A stretch of DNA of 64,000 bases, from assembly GCA_021800275.1 (NCBI GenBank), contig JAJYZB010000001.1:62001-126000 (forward strand), written 5' to 3'. This DNA is from a bacterium (GTDB lineage Bacteria; Vulcanimicrobiota; JABDET01). The notes below the pieces were generated by a model. The model searched no databases, was not told the DNA's origin, and was given only the letters and a program-made list of their open reading frames with translations. The position numbers were made by a program, and so were the translations under genes. Each line of letters opens with the position of its first letter. Position 1 is the stretch's first letter. Positions 26,097 to 33,407 of this stretch are shown piece by piece.

Positions 26097-26606
26097 ATAC
26101 TGAACCGGATAAATCCCCTTTTTTCGGAAAAAGAGATCGAATAAAATAGCGCCATCATTAATAGCTTTGTCTTTTTCATACTTGGGAATAAAATTCACGA
26201 GGATCTGATCTAAAAAAAAGATGCCCAGCAGAATCTTGAAAATTAAACCATTAAAATGATACCAGAGAACCGCAAAAAATATAAATTCAAAAATTAAACC
26301 TCCTGAAGCAAAGAAAAACTGCTGAAAAGGAGAAAAAGTTTTAGAACCTCTCCCTCCTAAGATCGTTCTGCCAAACCAGGGAAAACGTCCTATGCGAAGA
26401 GTGAATTTTTTTATTCGATAATGCTGATAAGGCAGCCTCCCAATTTCAATTCCTGAAACAGGAAACCCCAGCAGCTTCCCAATCAGATAATGACCTGATT
26501 CATGGAGAAAAATAAAAAACAGCATCACAGACAAGAACAAAATCCAAAAAGGAAGCAGCAGAAAGCGTAAAAATCGAGGTAAAAATTTAACTTCCCCCAA
26601 AAACAT
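26088..26606 (-). CDS. M50-family (site-2-protease-like) membrane metalloprotease
   Basis: The 172-residue protein is almost entirely hydrophobic. The zinc site HESGH is at residues 35-39, inside the first membrane helix. A later DGAIL segment preceded by NFIP matches the third zinc ligand region of S2P proteases. No PDZ domain is present. It is the last gene of the hrcA-dnaK-dnaJ transcript and overlaps dnaJ by 20 bp, hinting at membrane-protein quality control or intramembrane signalling tied to heat shock. That link is inference. Confidence 0.8.
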   Translation of the reverse strand: MFLGEVKFLPRFLRFLLLPFWILFLSVMLFFIFLHESGHYLIGKLLGFPVSGIEIGRLPYQHYRIKKFTLRIGRFPWFGRTILGGRGSKTFSPFQQFFFASGGLIFEFIFFAVLWYHFNGLIFKILLGIFFLDQILVNFIPKYEKDKAINDGAILFDLFFRKKGIYPVQYLG

Positions 26607-27714
26607 CCTTTAATTTCCCCATAAATCCTTTACTTGAATTCAGATTAACTCCCGAAATTTTTGCGAACTCCTGCAGCAGCTCCTTTTGTCTGTCATTAAT
26701 TTTTCTAGGCACCTCCACCTCAATAAGGACCATTTGATCTCCTCTGCTCATTCCATTCAAACCTGACATTCCTTTTCCTCGCAGACGAAAAACGGCCCCA
26801 TTCTGGGTTCCTGGCGGTATTTCGAGTTTTTCTTTTCCATCCAACGTAGGGACTTCCAGTTCTGCCCCTAAAACAGCTGCTGGAAATGAAATGGACAAAT
26901 AACAGATGATATTTAACCCTTCCCTTTTAAACTGGGGATGTGATTTTACAAATATAAAAAGATACAAATCTCCAGGAGGAGAACCTCGAAACCCAGCGGC
27001 CCCTTCTCCTTTGATTCTGATTCTTGTTCCTTCATCTACCCCTGCAGGAATTCTGGCTTTAATTTTGCGTTTCCCTTCTATGACACCTGTTCCAGCGCAA
27101 GAATGACAGGGATCTTTTAAAATCTCCCCCATGCCATGACACTTCGAACAAACTGCAGTTCTAACCATCCGACCGAAAAAAGAATTGTGGACTTCTTTAA
27201 TCTGACCCTGTCCACGGCAGGTTGAACAAGTCTCATATCCCCCTTTATTAGCTCCTGTTCCACTGCAGTCCTGACAAGGAACTGGAATTTTAACAGATAT
27301 TTCTTTCTCAACTCCAGCATAAGCTTCTTCAAGCGTGATTTCTAAATCATATCGAATATCTTCCCCTCTTAAAGGAGTTCTGCTTCTGCCCGAACGCGGT
27401 GTTCCTTCGCCAAAAAATGCTCCAATCAAATCATCGAACATGTCAAACCCGGTCGAAAAATCGAAATTGATCCCGTTTCCTCCGCTGCCTCCCTCAAAAG
27501 CCGCATGACCGAACTGGTCATATTTCGCCCTTTTCTCGGAATTGGACAAAATAGAAAAAGCCTCATTAATCTCTTTGAACTTGACTTCTGCTTCCTGCTT
27601 GTTTTCAGAAACATCAGGGTGATACTGCCGAGCTAATCCGCGATAAGCCTGTTTAATTTCTTCAAGAGTCGCTCTGGGGGAAACTCCCAGAACCTCGTAA
27701 TAATCCCTTTTCAC
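26587..27714 (-). CDS. dnaJ: Chaperone protein DnaJ
   Basis: This is a full type I Hsp40. It has a J domain (residues 1-70) with HPD, a Gly/Phe-rich linker, and four CxxCxGxG zinc repeats (CQDCSGTG, CSTCRGQG, CSKCHGMG, CHSCAGTG) around residues 148-210. C-terminal substrate domains ending in a dimerisation tail complete it. It stimulates DnaK ATPase and delivers substrates. At 375 residues it is of normal size. The start overlaps the thioredoxin-like gene by 4 bp. Confidence 0.97.
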   Translation of the reverse strand: MKRDYYEVLGVSPRATLEEIKQAYRGLARQYHPDVSENKQEAEVKFKEINEAFSILSNSEKRAKYDQFGHAAFEGGSGGNGINFDFSTGFDMFDDLIGAFFGEGTPRSGRSRTPLRGEDIRYDLEITLEEAYAGVEKEISVKIPVPCQDCSGTGANKGGYETCSTCRGQGQIKEVHNSFFGRMVRTAVCSKCHGMGEILKDPCHSCAGTGVIEGKRKIKARIPAGVDEGTRIRIKGEGAAGFRGSPPGDLYLFIFVKSHPQFKREGLNIICYLSISFPAAVLGAELEVPTLDGKEKLEIPPGTQNGAVFRLRGKGMSGLNGMSRGDQMVLIEVEVPRKINDRQKELLQEFAKISGVNLNSSKGFMGKLKDVFGGS

Positions 27715-28166
27715 TTCTTCTGATTCTGTCCAAGCAGAGCCACTTCATGCATCACATGAGACAGCTCATCTGGAGGGATATACCCCTCTAATCTCCCTAT
27801 CTCCCCATTCTTGAAACTGGCAAAAATGATGGTGGGAAGTCCTTGAATTCCGAAATACTCAGTTAAAGCTTTATGTTTATCAATGTTGATTCTGGTCATG
27901 ACAAAATGATGAGAAAGACGAATCACACTGCGATTCTGATAACTGGTTTTTTCCATTAACTGACAGTATTCGCACCAGGTGGCATAAAAATCTAAAAACA
28001 AAGGGCGATTGTTCTTTTTTGCCACATTTAATGAAACAGGAACAGAGGTAATCCAGTGAATTTTTTCTGCTTTCTGATAAGGGTTAGAACCATGATAATA
28101 TCGAAAAAATAATGACAGTCCCACTCCTAAAACAGCTGCAGCCGCAAGAATAATCCATTTTTTCAT
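27711..28166 (-). CDS. Membrane-anchored thioredoxin-fold protein
   Basis: A hydrophobic N-terminus (residues 4-22) acts as an anchor or signal. The thioredoxin-like domain has WCEYC (Cys65 and Cys68), the conserved strand LFLDFYAT before it, and the cis-Pro segment GLPTIIFAS. It resembles the DsbD C-terminal/thioredoxin_7 group, so it is likely an extracytoplasmic disulfide reductase or carrier. It lies between dnaK and dnaJ with 4-bp overlaps on both sides, an unusual insertion in this operon. Confidence 0.85.
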
Positions 28167-30019
28167 GGTTTCTGCTTGTCAAACCACCCGAAAATCTCTT
28201 CCTTACTAGGTTCTTCTTGTTTTTCAGATAATCCTTCTGTTTCTGCTTTTGCGGGAACAGATTGAACTCCTGAAATAGATCTTTCAGGAGATAGATAGAG
28301 TTGAGAAGTCAACATAAAAATAGCATCTTGCAAACTTCTTGTCTCTTGTTTGATTTTATCGTAATCTCGATTTTCGAGAACCTCTTTAAGACTCATAATA
28401 ATAACTCTCACCTGCTGCACTTTATCATCTCCAAAAATCTGACCATAATCTTTCAAAGTTCTTTCAGCCACGTCTATTTCGACCGCTGCTTTATTTCGAA
28501 TCTGCCTTTCTTCTCTTAAACGAATATCTTCATCAGCAAACTGCTGCGCTTCTTTAATCATCCGATTAATTTCCTCCTGGGACAAACCGGTCGGAGACTG
28601 CATCACGATTTTTTGTTTATTTCCAGTGGCCAGATCTTTAGCAGAAGTGCTGACAATTCCATTTGCATCAATTTCAAAAGCCACCTCGATTTGAGGAATT
28701 CCCCTTTTAGCAGGAGGAATATTTCTCAAATCAAAGGATCCCAGAAATTTATTGTGCTGGGCAAGTTCTCTTTCACCTTGATAAACCCGAACTTCAACTG
28801 TTGTTTGTCCATCCACAACCGTTGTAAAAATTTTAGCCTTGGAGCAGGGAATCTGGGTATTTCTTTCAATAATTCGGGTGAAAGCGCCGCCTGTAGTCTC
28901 AATTCCTAAAGATAAACTGGTCACATCTAATAAAACCAGATCTTTCACTTCTCCCGCTAATACAGCGCCTTGAATTGCGGCTCCCATGGCTACGACTTTA
29001 TCGGGATCCACTTCTCTGCTCGGTTCTTTTAAAAAGAGCTTCTGCGCCATTTTCTGGACCATCGGCATTCGGGTTGAACCCCCAACCAGAATCACCTTGT
29101 TAATCTGTCCTAAAGGAATTTTTGCGTCATCCAGAGCCCTTTTCGAAGGAGCAGCCAGTCTGTCAACCAGATCTTTTGTCAATTCCTCAAATTTTTCACG
29201 GGTTAACTCCATATCCAAATGTTTAGGTCCGCTGGGATCTGCAGCGATAAAAGGGAGATTGATCCGAGTTGTTTCTTTTTCAGACAGATCCCATTTCGCC
29301 GTTTCTGCAGCCTCTTTCAACCTCTGCATCGCGATTCTATCAATTCTTAAATCAATCCCCGACGATTTTTTAAATCCATCTACCAGATAATCCATAATTC
29401 GGCGATCCCAATCATCTCCGCCCAACTTCATGTCACCACTGGTGGAAATGACTTCAAAAACCCCGCTTTCAATCGTTAAAATAGAAACGTCGAAGGTTCC
29501 ACCGCCCAGATCGAAAACAAGAACAGTTTGACTCCCCTCCATTTTCTCTAATCCATAAGCCATGGCTGCAGCAGTTGGCTCATTCACGATCCTGACCACT
29601 TCCATTCCTGCAATAGTTCCCGCATCTTTTGTCGCCTGTCTTTCGGCATCATTAAAATAAGCCGGAACTGTAATCACAGCTTTATCCACGGTTTCTCCTA
29701 AACTGGCTTCTGCGTCTGACCTGATTTTTTGCAGAATCATGGCAGAAATCTCCTGAGGGGTATATTCTTGTTCATCCACACGAGCTTTAAAATCGGTTCC
29801 CATCTGTCTTTTAATCGAGACAATCGTTCTCTCGGGATTTGAGACAGCCTGGCGTTTAGCTAATTCTCCAACCACTCTTTCTCCCAACTTCGTAAACCCA
29901 ACAACAGATGGAGTTAAATGACTTCCTTCCGCATTGGTGATGACAACAGGCTCTCCTGCTTCCATCACAGCAGCCAGAGAGTTTGTAGTTCCTAAATCAA
30001 TTCCTATGATCTTTCCCAT
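28163..30019 (-). CDS. dnaK: Chaperone protein DnaK (Hsp70)
   Basis: The N-terminal ATPase has [23 protein letters not shown] and [14 protein letters not shown]. The interdomain linker [16 protein letters not shown] is present and the substrate domain follows. At 618 residues it is normal, but the tail ends [13 protein letters not shown] instead of the usual acidic EEVD-like end. It works with DnaJ and GrpE from the same operon. The gene begins 17 bp after grpE. Confidence 0.98.
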
Positions 30020-30036: not shown

Positions 30037-30828
30037 CTAATTCGCCAGAGAAGCTCTAGCTACCTTCACCAGAGCAGGGCGGATTACTTTTTCCCCCAGT
30101 TTATAACCTTTTCGTATTTCTTCTATCACCGTATTCTCAGGAACATCTTCTCGAATAACGGTTTCAGCAGCTTCATGAAGGGAAGGATCAAAAGCAGATC
30201 CATTCGTAGGAATTTCTTTCACTCCTTCTCTTGAAAAAATCTCCTCAATCTGTCTTTTAATCATTTCAACGCCCTGGAAAATAGAACTCGCATCCCCAAA
30301 ATCTTTAAAATTTAACGCTCTCTCCAGATTGTCAAGAATCGGAAGAATTTTCAGGATCATTTTCTGGCGAATTTCTTCGGCTTTTTCCTCTACTTTCTTT
30401 TCAGAACGCTTCCGCAATTTATCGAATTCTTCTTCTATCCGATCACACTCAGACTCAAGGCGGCCGCACTTCAATTCTAATCGCTCAACCACTTCCTGCT
30501 GCTCATTTAATTTTTTTTCAAAAATCTGTCTGTCATCTTCCGCAGCAAAAGGTTGAAGAGCTTTTGAAGGAACCGTAAATTCTTCTAAACGAACCTTTAA
30601 CTTCGAATTCTCTGCTGCTTCTTTTTCATACAAATCTTTTAAAGTAACAAGAGCCAGATGATAACAGGTCAAAAATTCTTTCAAGTTAAATGTTTTAGAA
30701 AGATTCTCACACTTATTTCTCAGAAAACCAAGATCCTCAACCTGCTCCGCCAGTGTCAAGAGATCCCGCAAATGCAGAGCGCGGTAATTAGAGCGATTTT
30801 CGCCTTTCTTTTCAGGAGATCTGCTCAT
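30037..30828 (-). CDS. grpE: Nucleotide exchange factor GrpE, long N-terminal extension
   Basis: The C-terminal half is a standard GrpE: coiled coil, ILPILDNLERALNF, and the beta domain with FDPSLHEAAETV and GYKLGEKVIRPALVKVA. At 263 residues it is longer than the common 180-200. The first ~90 residues are an extra helical region before the coiled coil, with three Cys or Leu-rich stretches of unknown use. It exchanges ADP on DnaK. It overlaps the chaperonin gene by 17 bp. Confidence 0.95.
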   Translation of the reverse strand: MSRSPEKKGENRSNYRALHLRDLLTLAEQVEDLGFLRNKCENLSKTFNLKEFLTCYHLALVTLKDLYEKEAAENSKLKVRLEEFTVPSKALQPFAAEDDRQIFEKKLNEQQEVVERLELKCGRLESECDRIEEEFDKLRKRSEKKVEEKAEEIRQKMILKILPILDNLERALNFKDFGDASSIFQGVEMIKRQIEEIFSREGVKEIPTNGSAFDPSLHEAAETVIREDVPENTVIEEIRKGYKLGEKVIRPALVKVARASLAN

Positions 30829-32362
30829 GATCCCTCATTTTCACGACGCGATTGATTCTCAAAATGGCTTGAGCCACTTCAGAAGCTGTCTTCAACGCAA
30901 ACACCTTCACTTTTAAAGGATCAACCACTTTTTTTTCCAGCATATCGGCAGATTCTCCTGTTTCAAAATCCAGAGATAGAGAATTGAGATCTTGTTTTGA
31001 CTGAAGCCTGCAGATTTCCTCCGTTTTCTCCAGAGAATTATAGCCCGCATTGACAGCCATTTGAAAAAAAGGCTGCTTTAAGCCCTGGATCACGCAGTCC
31101 AGGCCATAAGAAGTCATGCCGCTGAATTCGCTCCTGCGAGATTCCAAAAATCGAACACAGGTCAGTTCACTGGCGCCTCCGCCAGGGACTACTCCTGACT
31201 GGAAAGCCGCCTGAAGAGAAGACGCAGCATCTCTTGTTTTTCTCCTTTTTTCCTCTGTCACCTGATCCGTGTTAGCTCCCACCAAAAGTGTTGAACTCGG
31301 CTTCCCTACCCCTCCTAAAATAACTATCATGCCGATTTCTTCCATTTCAAAAACGCTTTCAGCCTTTCCCAAAAACGTTCGAATGGATTCCGAAGTACGA
31401 TTCAATCCCGAGCGTTTTAAAGATCGGGCTCCTGTGCAGTTTGAAATATCTTTAAGATCTCGAGACGTGATTCTTCGAGCAGCAAAAGCCCCTGCCTGAA
31501 TCAGAATCTCTTCTGCTTCAGGCTCAATTCCGCCTGTCGTAAAAACAACATTCACTCCGAGAGATAAAATCCTCTGTAAATTCTCTAAAAACCGCTGCTT
31601 CAAATCCATGTTTTTTTTGAATCCTGATTCAGTGCGCAGGGATTCATTCTCCACTTCTTCTGGGCCCAGATTGTCTTCCAGAAGAAGAATCACTGCAGAA
31701 GAAATCCTGACTGGCATTAATGTTGAAACCCTTCCTTTTGAAAGAAGAGTTCCTTTAATTAATTGATCCTCCACTCCTGTTCGGGCAAAAATAATATCCG
31801 CAAATTTAAAAGAATGAGATGAAATCTTCTCTTTCCCCAGCTGCTGAGCAGCCTGGAAAATCATGGCAGCAGTCTTTTCATCTCCTCTCCCGGCGGTCAC
31901 TGCCACCTGCAGCAGAAACGGATCCTGTAATTCTGTCACTGGAATTCGGCATTTCTCACGCAGAATCTCGATCCCCAGCTCAGCTGCCTTCTCTATCCCC
32001 TCTAAAAGCCTGGAAACAGGAACTCCTTTCAAAATCTGGGCGATCCCTTCTTTTAGAATGGCAGCTGCCATCACAATCGCTGTTGTCGTTCCATCCCCGA
32101 CCTGAATATACTGCGATTTTGCAGCTTCTAAAATCATGCGAGACGCAGGGTGAGAAATTTCCATTTTTTCTAAAATCGCAACCCCTGAATTCGTCACTAA
32201 AATTTCGCCAAAAGGACCGACCATCATGGTATCCAGCCCTTTAGGGCCAAGAGTTCCTTCAACGGCGCGGGAAACAGCAAGCACTGCTGCCGCATTATTG
32301 TTTAAAGCTGCAGTGACCTCATCCACCTCTACCGTTTTTTCGCTGACTGAATTTCTCATCAT
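30812..32362 (-). CDS. Archaeal-like (group III) chaperonin
   Basis: The 516-residue protein is a TCP-1/thermosome-type chaperonin rather than GroEL. Marks are TLGPKGLDTMMV (residues 37-48), the segment EKMEISHPASRMILEAAKSQ, GDGTTTAIVMA (89-99) and VVPGGGASEL. Bacterial group III chaperonins of this kind are known from some Clostridia, where they lie in the dnaK operon, exactly as here between hrcA and grpE. They form a closed double ring with a built-in lid and need no GroES. One oddity: the ATPase Asp of the TNDG (GroEL Asp52) motif is Ser59 here, while the second catalytic Asp (GroEL Asp398) is kept as Asp378. It starts 7 bp after the hrcA stop. Confidence 0.93.
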   Translation of the reverse strand: MMRNSVSEKTVEVDEVTAALNNNAAAVLAVSRAVEGTLGPKGLDTMMVGPFGEILVTNSGVAILEKMEISHPASRMILEAAKSQYIQVGDGTTTAIVMAAAILKEGIAQILKGVPVSRLLEGIEKAAELGIEILREKCRIPVTELQDPFLLQVAVTAGRGDEKTAAMIFQAAQQLGKEKISSHSFKFADIIFARTGVEDQLIKGTLLSKGRVSTLMPVRISSAVILLLEDNLGPEEVENESLRTESGFKKNMDLKQRFLENLQRILSLGVNVVFTTGGIEPEAEEILIQAGAFAARRITSRDLKDISNCTGARSLKRSGLNRTSESIRTFLGKAESVFEMEEIGMIVILGGVGKPSSTLLVGANTDQVTEEKRRKTRDAASSLQAAFQSGVVPGGGASELTCVRFLESRRSEFSGMTSYGLDCVIQGLKQPFFQMAVNAGYNSLEKTEEICRLQSKQDLNSLSLDFETGESADMLEKKVVDPLKVKVFALKTASEVAQAILRINRVVKMRDHEQIS

Positions 32363-32369
32363 CGCGCAG

Positions 32370-33407
32370 TTATGACAAAACCTGGCTCAAACTCTGCGAA
32401 ATCAAGTTGGACGCATATTCTACAAGGGGAACAACATGAGGGTAATCCATTCGGGTTGGACCGACTAAAGCCAGAACTCCATAACCGGTTTGGTCATTTC
32501 CAAACGGGCTGGCGACAACACTAAAATCCTGAAAATTTTTAAGTGGATTTTCATCTCCAATCACAACATTTAAACCGGCTTTGGAGACAATTCTCTCGAA
32601 AAATTTAAAGAACCGATCCCCCTGTTCAAAATACTCCATCAAAGTTTTCAATCTATCAATATCCTGAAATTCAGGCTGCTTCAAAAGCTGATTTGTTCCC
32701 TCCACCAGAATTTTCACTCTGCTTTCTCTCTCTAAAAATTGAGAAACCGCTCTTAAAATTCTAACTATTATTCCTGAAAGCATCTCATCTGCGAGGTCAT
32801 CTAAAAACTGATCATTGATTTGACTGAGAGGGATCCCGCTGAAATGCTCATTTAAAAAATTATTCAAAAACTCCAGCTTATCCTGAGGAACATCCATTTC
32901 TAAAATGCGGTCAAAAACAAAACCATTCTCTGTCACCAGAACGTAAAGGAATCTTTGGGCATCAATAGGCACCAGTTCGATTTTTTTAAAGACCAGGGTA
33001 GGAACCGCAAATTGAAAAGCAACAGCCGCATATCCACCAATGTAAGAGACAATTCTAGCAGCTGCTTTCAGCATGCCGTCTATCTCGTCAAATTCTTTAT
33101 CCATCTCCTTCGAAATCCACTTTCTTTCCTTTGCGGAAAGATATTTTCTCTTCATCAGCCAATCCACATAATGTCTGTAGCCCTTATCTGTGGGAACCCT
33201 TCCTGAAGAGGCGTGGGGCTGTTTTAGATAACCAGACTGTTCTAAATCACTCATCCAATTCCTTAAAGTGGCAGAACTGGAATCCAATCCATGCATTCCC
33301 TCAATGGAAAGGGAAGCCACAGGAGAAGCAGTCTGAATATATTGATTGACCACAACTTTCAGCAAGCGCTCTTTTTTCTGATCCAGGGGTTCTTCAATTT
33401 TCACCAT
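32370..33407 (-). CDS. hrcA: Heat-inducible transcription repressor HrcA
   Basis: The 345-residue protein has the winged-helix domain (KVVVNQYIQTASPVAS and LDSSSATLRNWMSDLEQSGYL) followed by SSGRVPTDKGYRHYVDWL. A GAF-like HrcA domain ends with GVLALVGPTRMDYPHVVPLV. HrcA represses heat-shock operons by binding CIRCE inverted repeats. No CIRCE (TTAGCACTC-N9-GAGTGCTAA) is visible upstream of this operon. The ATG is only 8 bases after a TATAAT box and lacks a ribosome site, so the message may be leaderless. Confidence 0.96.
   Translation of the reverse strand: MVKIEEPLDQKKERLLKVVVNQYIQTASPVASLSIEGMHGLDSSSATLRNWMSDLEQSGYLKQPHASSGRVPTDKGYRHYVDWLMKRKYLSAKERKWISKEMDKEFDEIDGMLKAAARIVSYIGGYAAVAFQFAVPTLVFKKIELVPIDAQRFLYVLVTENGFVFDRILEMDVPQDKLEFLNNFLNEHFSGIPLSQINDQFLDDLADEMLSGIIVRILRAVSQFLERESRVKILVEGTNQLLKQPEFQDIDRLKTLMEYFEQGDRFFKFFERIVSKAGLNVVIGDENPLKNFQDFSVVASPFGNDQTGYGVLALVGPTRMDYPHVVPLVEYASNLISQSLSQVLS

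Follow-up and report, generated by a model that had tools for sequence, protein, structure and literature searches.

A group III chaperonin encoded in a DnaK operon has serine at the position of the first catalytic aspartate

A group III chaperonin with a single catalytic aspartate

We found that a group III chaperonin encoded in the window (the whole 64,000-nucleotide stretch of bacterial DNA that was analyzed) has serine at the position of the first of two catalytic aspartates, and that the remainder of its nucleotide site is complete. The family is an ordinary one, and the change in its active site is unusual and consistent. From the sequences compared, the lineage appears to have replaced this aspartate with alanine and, in the window's genus, with serine; a group within the Bacillota shows the same apparent loss. 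We think it fairly probable that the protein is a functional ATPase with a slow cycle driven by its remaining aspartate, the slow rate being suggested by analogy with GroEL and Hsp60 mutants. The gene and the residues of its nucleotide site are as follows.

30812..32362, minus strand: group III chaperonin, 516 amino acids (Pfam Cpn60_TCP1, 340.7 bits; nearest structures 9rwq and 5x9u/5x9v)
32183..32194, minus strand: TNSG motif, residues 57-60 (both Ch-CPN and the GroEL of this genome have TNDG)
32186..32188, minus strand: Ser59 codon, TCA (position of GroEL Asp52 and Ch-CPN Asp56)
32108..32110, minus strand: Tyr85 codon, beside the Mg loop
32081..32098, minus strand: GDGTTT phosphate/Mg loop, residues 89-94, intact (Asp90 equals Ch-CPN Asp87)
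31886..31888, minus strand: Arg159 codon, kept (equals Ch-CPN Arg155, the gamma-phosphate contact)
31229..31231, minus strand: Asp378 codon, kept (equals Ch-CPN Asp373 and GroEL Asp398)

The reading frame runs ILVTNSGVAIL where Ch-CPN, the group III chaperonin of Carboxydothermus hydrogenoformans, and most relatives have TNDG. In a phmmer pairwise alignment with Ch-CPN (PDB 5x9u), Ser59 lies opposite Asp56, Arg159 opposite Arg155, and Asp378 opposite Asp373. In the available part of the Ch-CPN report, Asp56 and Asp373 are termed conserved catalytic residues, and Arg155 is described as a gamma-phosphate contact conserved across group III (PMC5635000). The original prediction, made from the sequence alone, was that the first catalytic aspartate is absent, that the second is kept, and that the Mg-binding GDGTTT is intact. 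The alignment bears this out: Ser59 corresponds to Ch-CPN Asp56 and GroEL Asp52, with the TNSG coordinates exact, Asp378 corresponds to Ch-CPN Asp373, and GDGTTT is complete at 32098-32081. A change from an aspartate codon (GAT or GAC) to TCA takes at least two base changes.

Class assignment and structure

The window protein is a true group III chaperonin. Among solved structures, its best sequence match was ACIII, a reconstructed group III ancestor (PDB 9rwq; PMC12696368), at 457 bits (E 7e-136), followed by Ch-CPN (415 bits), an ancestral group II sequence (236 bits), and thermosomes (about 200 bits). An AlphaFold model built from nine aligned sequences had a mean pLDDT of 87.1, and Foldseek placed this model closest to Ch-CPN (PDB 5x9u/5x9v; TM 0.89 and 43% identity to the closed form, TM 0.85 to the open form), ahead of any group II structure. 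The group II nucleotide-sensing loop is absent. Residues 155-172 align with Ch-CPN without gaps, and the same stretch is four residues shorter than in the ancestral group II sequence. The group III gamma-phosphate arginine is present as Arg159, and the model has a built-in apical lid (helices 239-243 and 245-266).

Like the window protein, Ch-CPN has no nucleotide-sensing loop and has the gamma-phosphate arginine, the second aspartate, and GDGTTT; the two differ in that Ch-CPN has Asp56 where the window protein has Ser59. ACIII also differs in having aspartate at this position, and it is reported to hydrolyze ATP (PMC12696368). The window protein thus has one of the two catalytic aspartates, Asp378, with Ser59 at the place of the other. 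As described in the available part of PMC5635000, the pair is conserved in group III but is not its defining trait. The chain of 9rwq is named ancestral group II (ACII) in the PDB copy; PMC12696368 gives 9RWQ as ACIII, and the sequence fits group III.

The serine is neither an error nor a sign of decay

A relative in the same genus (L004, identical in sequence to L040) encodes a chaperonin that is 79% identical to the window protein and also has TNSG, with TCT as the serine codon. Because the sister species specifies this serine by a different codon, Ser59 is not a sequencing error. Between these two species, the chaperonin gene had dN of 0.125 and dS of 1.327 (NG86), a ratio of 0.094. This is in line with its operon neighbors in the same pair (grpE, 0.108; hrcA, 0.136; dnaK, 0.065). 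The chaperonin gene is under purifying selection.

The chance that the serine reflects misalignment, a sequencing error, or a pseudogene is negligible, and we found no point in favor of any of these. Misalignment is ruled out by the ungapped alignment to solved structures around Ser59. Error and pseudogene are ruled out by the second serine codon, by the dN/dS of 0.094, and by the model (pLDDT 87.1), whose closest structure is Ch-CPN.

Distribution of the aspartate loss

We searched 149 genomes of the window's phylum, taking matches with E of 3.1e-57 or better as group III; the remaining matches were at the level of GroEL. Group III genes were present in 10 of the genomes, and none of the 10 encodes the aspartate (7 alanine, 3 serine). 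One of the three serine sequences, L012, is divergent and has TASG. This sequence (G006:C10) is about 30% identical to the window protein, has His85, keeps R159 and D378, and lies between hrcA and grpE-dnaK. In a motif search, the scanned GroEL-type sequences of the phylum had TNDG or TKDG wherever the motif was found; the search found no motif in the GroEL-type fragment L017.

Among the best 80 loci of our genome collection, 76 had aspartate and 4 did not, and these 4 are identical to 4 of the phylum's 10. The scan used two patterns, one of which favors alanine or serine, and all 80 loci also match the unbiased pattern. Of 291 genomes in the phylum of an Armatimonadota genome, 41 had a match at E of 1e-40 or better. 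Position 59 was read in 40 of these (39 aspartate, 1 histidine) and left unread in G413, whose match starts at residue 160. The histidine sequence, L190 (G417:C164), is a degraded paralogue with His59, R159G, and D378S; in contrast to the window protein, it is probably a genuine pseudo-ATPase. Of 398 genomes in the phylum of a Bacillota genome, 127 had such a match, and the position was read in 120 (109 aspartate, 11 alanine). It was left unread in G708, G463, G619, G820, and G561; the matches in G154 and G159 are L084 and L087, both with aspartate. Masked bases in L006 were read as X; L185, L194, and L195 each have one in-frame stop in the match and were represented by their longest open stretch, without reading through the stop.

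The merged non-redundant set contained 229 sequences, including the window's own GroEL, and had aspartate in 207, alanine in 18, serine in 3, and histidine in 1. Given this proportion, and given that all 206 aspartate-bearing group III rows have N58, G60, and D90, the change is not chance variation. The question raised with the original prediction, whether serine is particular to the lineage or general in active group III chaperonins, is answered in favor of the lineage: the aspartate is missing from 10 of 10 group III genes in the phylum versus its presence in 207 of 229 sequences of the combined set, and Ch-CPN, with a measured ATPase, has Asp56. The comparison also extends that prediction, in that most relatives have alanine rather than serine, the loss is common to a Bacillota group, and the gamma-phosphate arginine is kept.

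The Bacillota sequences without the aspartate (L153, L178, L193, L207, L208, L237, L242, L247, L250, L251, and L256) resemble the window protein in that the first aspartate is replaced (TNAG, with one TSAG) and the other catalytic residues are all kept. They differ in having alanine rather than serine and in having Gln85. In open-literature titles and the starts of abstracts, we found no report of a natural loss of the first aspartate in group III.

Number of losses

In the alignment, the reconstructed ancestor ACIII has aspartate at the position of Ser59, and the loss is therefore probably the derived state. We built a careful tree of 77 rows from which columns 59 and 85 were dropped; its rows do not include L189, L280, the GroEL L002, the degraded L190, or L012, which has a very long branch. 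On this tree, the rows without aspartate need 5 changes (bootstrap range 3-5, with a single change in 0 of 200 trees). Quick trees had suggested 4 changes, and a single-clade tree outscored the quick tree. Constraining all 20 non-aspartate rows to a single clade gave a tree that was 18.7 log units worse and was not rejected (AU p 0.116), and placing the nine phylum rows in one clade was not rejected either (AU p 0.385). Because the AU test rejects neither single clade, we give the number of losses as one to five and make no choice within that range. Serine codons of the TCN type are one base from alanine (GCN) and two or more from aspartate, and a path from aspartate through alanine to serine would fit these distances.

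The rest of the site and the search for compensation

In the nine closer phylum rows and the 11 Bacillota rows without aspartate, T37, P40, G60, D90, G91, T92, T93, T94, R159, D378, and G395 are invariant, and N58 is present in all nine of the former and in 10 of the 11 latter. The adenine-side residue 156 is threonine, valine, or isoleucine in these rows, a conservative swap. These 20 rows have thus had a single residue removed from an otherwise complete site. Loss of several residues, a trait of pseudo-chaperonins, was not seen; the first aspartate alone is gone.

The original prediction allowed that another aspartate might take the place of the missing one. The alignment comparison yielded no acidic residue gained exclusively in the sequences without aspartate, and no replacement acid common to the two groups was evident. 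Positions 65, 253, 339, and 448 are acidic more often in both non-aspartate groups, yet they are also acidic in 35-45% of aspartate sequences. At position 65, an acid is present in 8 of 9 phylum rows and 11 of 11 Bacillota non-aspartate rows versus 37% of the 206 aspartate rows. An independent-pair test on the tree had one supported pair, too few for a test. Because an acid at 65 is common alongside Asp59 and there is one independent pair, compensation by position 65, although suggestive, has no statistical support. Position 85, which is histidine or tyrosine in 10 of 10 group III proteins from the phylum and mostly glutamine, glutamate, or aspartate elsewhere, at first appeared to be a perfect second discriminator. 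All 11 Bacillota non-aspartate rows have Gln85, which rejects His/Tyr85 as a general compensation; one of the six His85 sequences in the set lies outside the window's phylum.

Slow cycling and its alternatives

The GroEL mutant D52A reportedly keeps about 20% of ATPase activity, and the double mutant D52A/D398A under 0.01%. The laboratory mutants D52A and D398A are like the window protein in having lost one of two catalytic aspartates; they differ in being engineered, whereas the state of the window protein is natural, lineage-wide, and found in another chaperonin group. The attacking water of GroEL lies between D52 and D398 (PMC10723157). D398A has about 2% ATPase with normal ATP binding, and the HSP60 mutant D398A retained the ability to refold rhodanese (PMC5855711). 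In DFT cluster models, one deprotonated aspartate can serve alone as the base (PMC12557358). In Ch-CPN, R155E/L and D373A strongly reduced the ATPase, and the ring adopted the closed form with AMPPNP and the open form with ADP (PMC5635000).

By analogy with these systems, ATP and Mg would bind normally to the window protein through Asp90 and Thr92-94, and ATP-driven closure of the ring would bring Arg159 and Asp378 onto the gamma-phosphate. Asp378 alone could then orient and deprotonate the attacking water, with hydrolysis continuing at a reduced rate. Because ATP binding closes group III rings and the ADP state is open, slower hydrolysis would lengthen the closed, encapsulated state. The slow turnover or long closed state put forward in the original prediction would follow by analogy with the GroEL and Hsp60 mutants.

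The main rival to slow cycling is an ordinary rate, with group III depending less on the first aspartate. Group III has an arginine at the gamma-phosphate and little cooperativity, so the first aspartate could matter less, and Arg159 with Asp378 might suffice. In related forms of this explanation, His/Tyr85 (in the phylum only), an acid at 65, or a rearranged water network would replace the aspartate. The residues at 85 in the phylum and the frequent acid at 65 in both non-aspartate groups speak for such a site, but Gln85 in the Bacillota rows shows that 85 is no general compensation, and the acid at 65 often coexists with Asp59 and has one supported independent pair. We regard a compensated site with an ordinary rate as somewhat unlikely. 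A protein dead as an ATPase, binding ATP or nothing and acting as a holding cage or as a passive partner of the DnaK system, seems decidedly improbable. One catalytic aspartate is gone, and in other chaperonins, loss of the other leaves a few per cent of the ATPase activity; however, all 20 of the intact non-aspartate sequences have Asp378, Arg159, Asp90, and the TTT, and one would expect a pseudo-ATPase to have lost some site residues, as the degraded L190 did (R159G, D378S).

The change might also be near-neutral drift with no tuning, in a second chaperonin whose need for fast hydrolysis is relaxed, the loss having been inherited or spread once. A single origin of all 20 non-aspartate rows, which the AU test did not reject, is compatible with this. 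Against it, the aspartate and its neighbors are kept in the other sequences read (the 206 aspartate rows with invariant N58, G60, and D90), and the best tree scatters the losses. We consider drift unlikely. Slow cycling on Asp378 remains the reading we prefer.

The window's lineage has dropped one half of a two-aspartate, water-activating dyad that is treated as conserved chaperonin machinery, and has kept the rest. The statement that catalytic Asp56 is conserved is thus true for 207 of the 229 collected sequences and for 0 of 10 in the window's phylum. The lineage is a natural test of what determines the closed time of a folding chamber, and of whether group III, with an arginine on the gamma-phosphate, requires both acids.

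The chaperonin gene lies within a DnaK operon

The genes around the chaperonin gene are as follows.

32370..33407, minus strand: hrcA, heat-shock repressor, directly upstream of the chaperonin gene (PF01628, 182 bits)
30037..30828, minus strand: grpE, overlapping the end of the chaperonin gene (PF01025, 152 bits)
28163..30019, minus strand: dnaK (PF00012, 744 bits)
27711..28166, minus strand: thioredoxin-like protein between dnaK and dnaJ (PF13098)
26587..27714, minus strand: dnaJ (PF01556, PF00226, PF00684)

The heat-shock operon is complete, in the order hrcA-cpn-grpE-dnaK-trx-dnaJ, and the chaperonin gene is thus inside the DnaK operon, where group III chaperonin genes have been reported in the available part of PMC5635000. 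The hrcA-cpn-grpE-dnaK order is also present in the same-genus relative and, within the extent of the flanks, in the other non-aspartate loci examined. Across 11 non-aspartate loci, hrcA and grpE were found in 11 and dnaK in 10 (the flank of L011 ends first). Elsewhere, the window's genome has one canonical GroEL with TNDG and one GroES beside it.

With this arrangement, the group III protein could act as a slow-timer cage beside DnaK, DnaJ, and GrpE, with the ordinary GroEL/GroES doing the fast cycling. We suggest tentatively, as a possibility that we would not call likely, that one-aspartate catalysis evolved across the group III chaperonins of a phylum, and separately in a Bacillota group, as a heritable slow timer, integrated into the DnaK operon, that gives a long-closed chamber. 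If so, nature would have arrived more than once at an equivalent of the GroEL Asp52 mutants made in the laboratory.

The overlap between the reading frames of the chaperonin and grpE is 17 bases long (30812-30828). The thioredoxin-like gene (27711-28166, minus strand) encodes an N-terminal hydrophobic stretch and occupies the same place in the same-genus relative L040.
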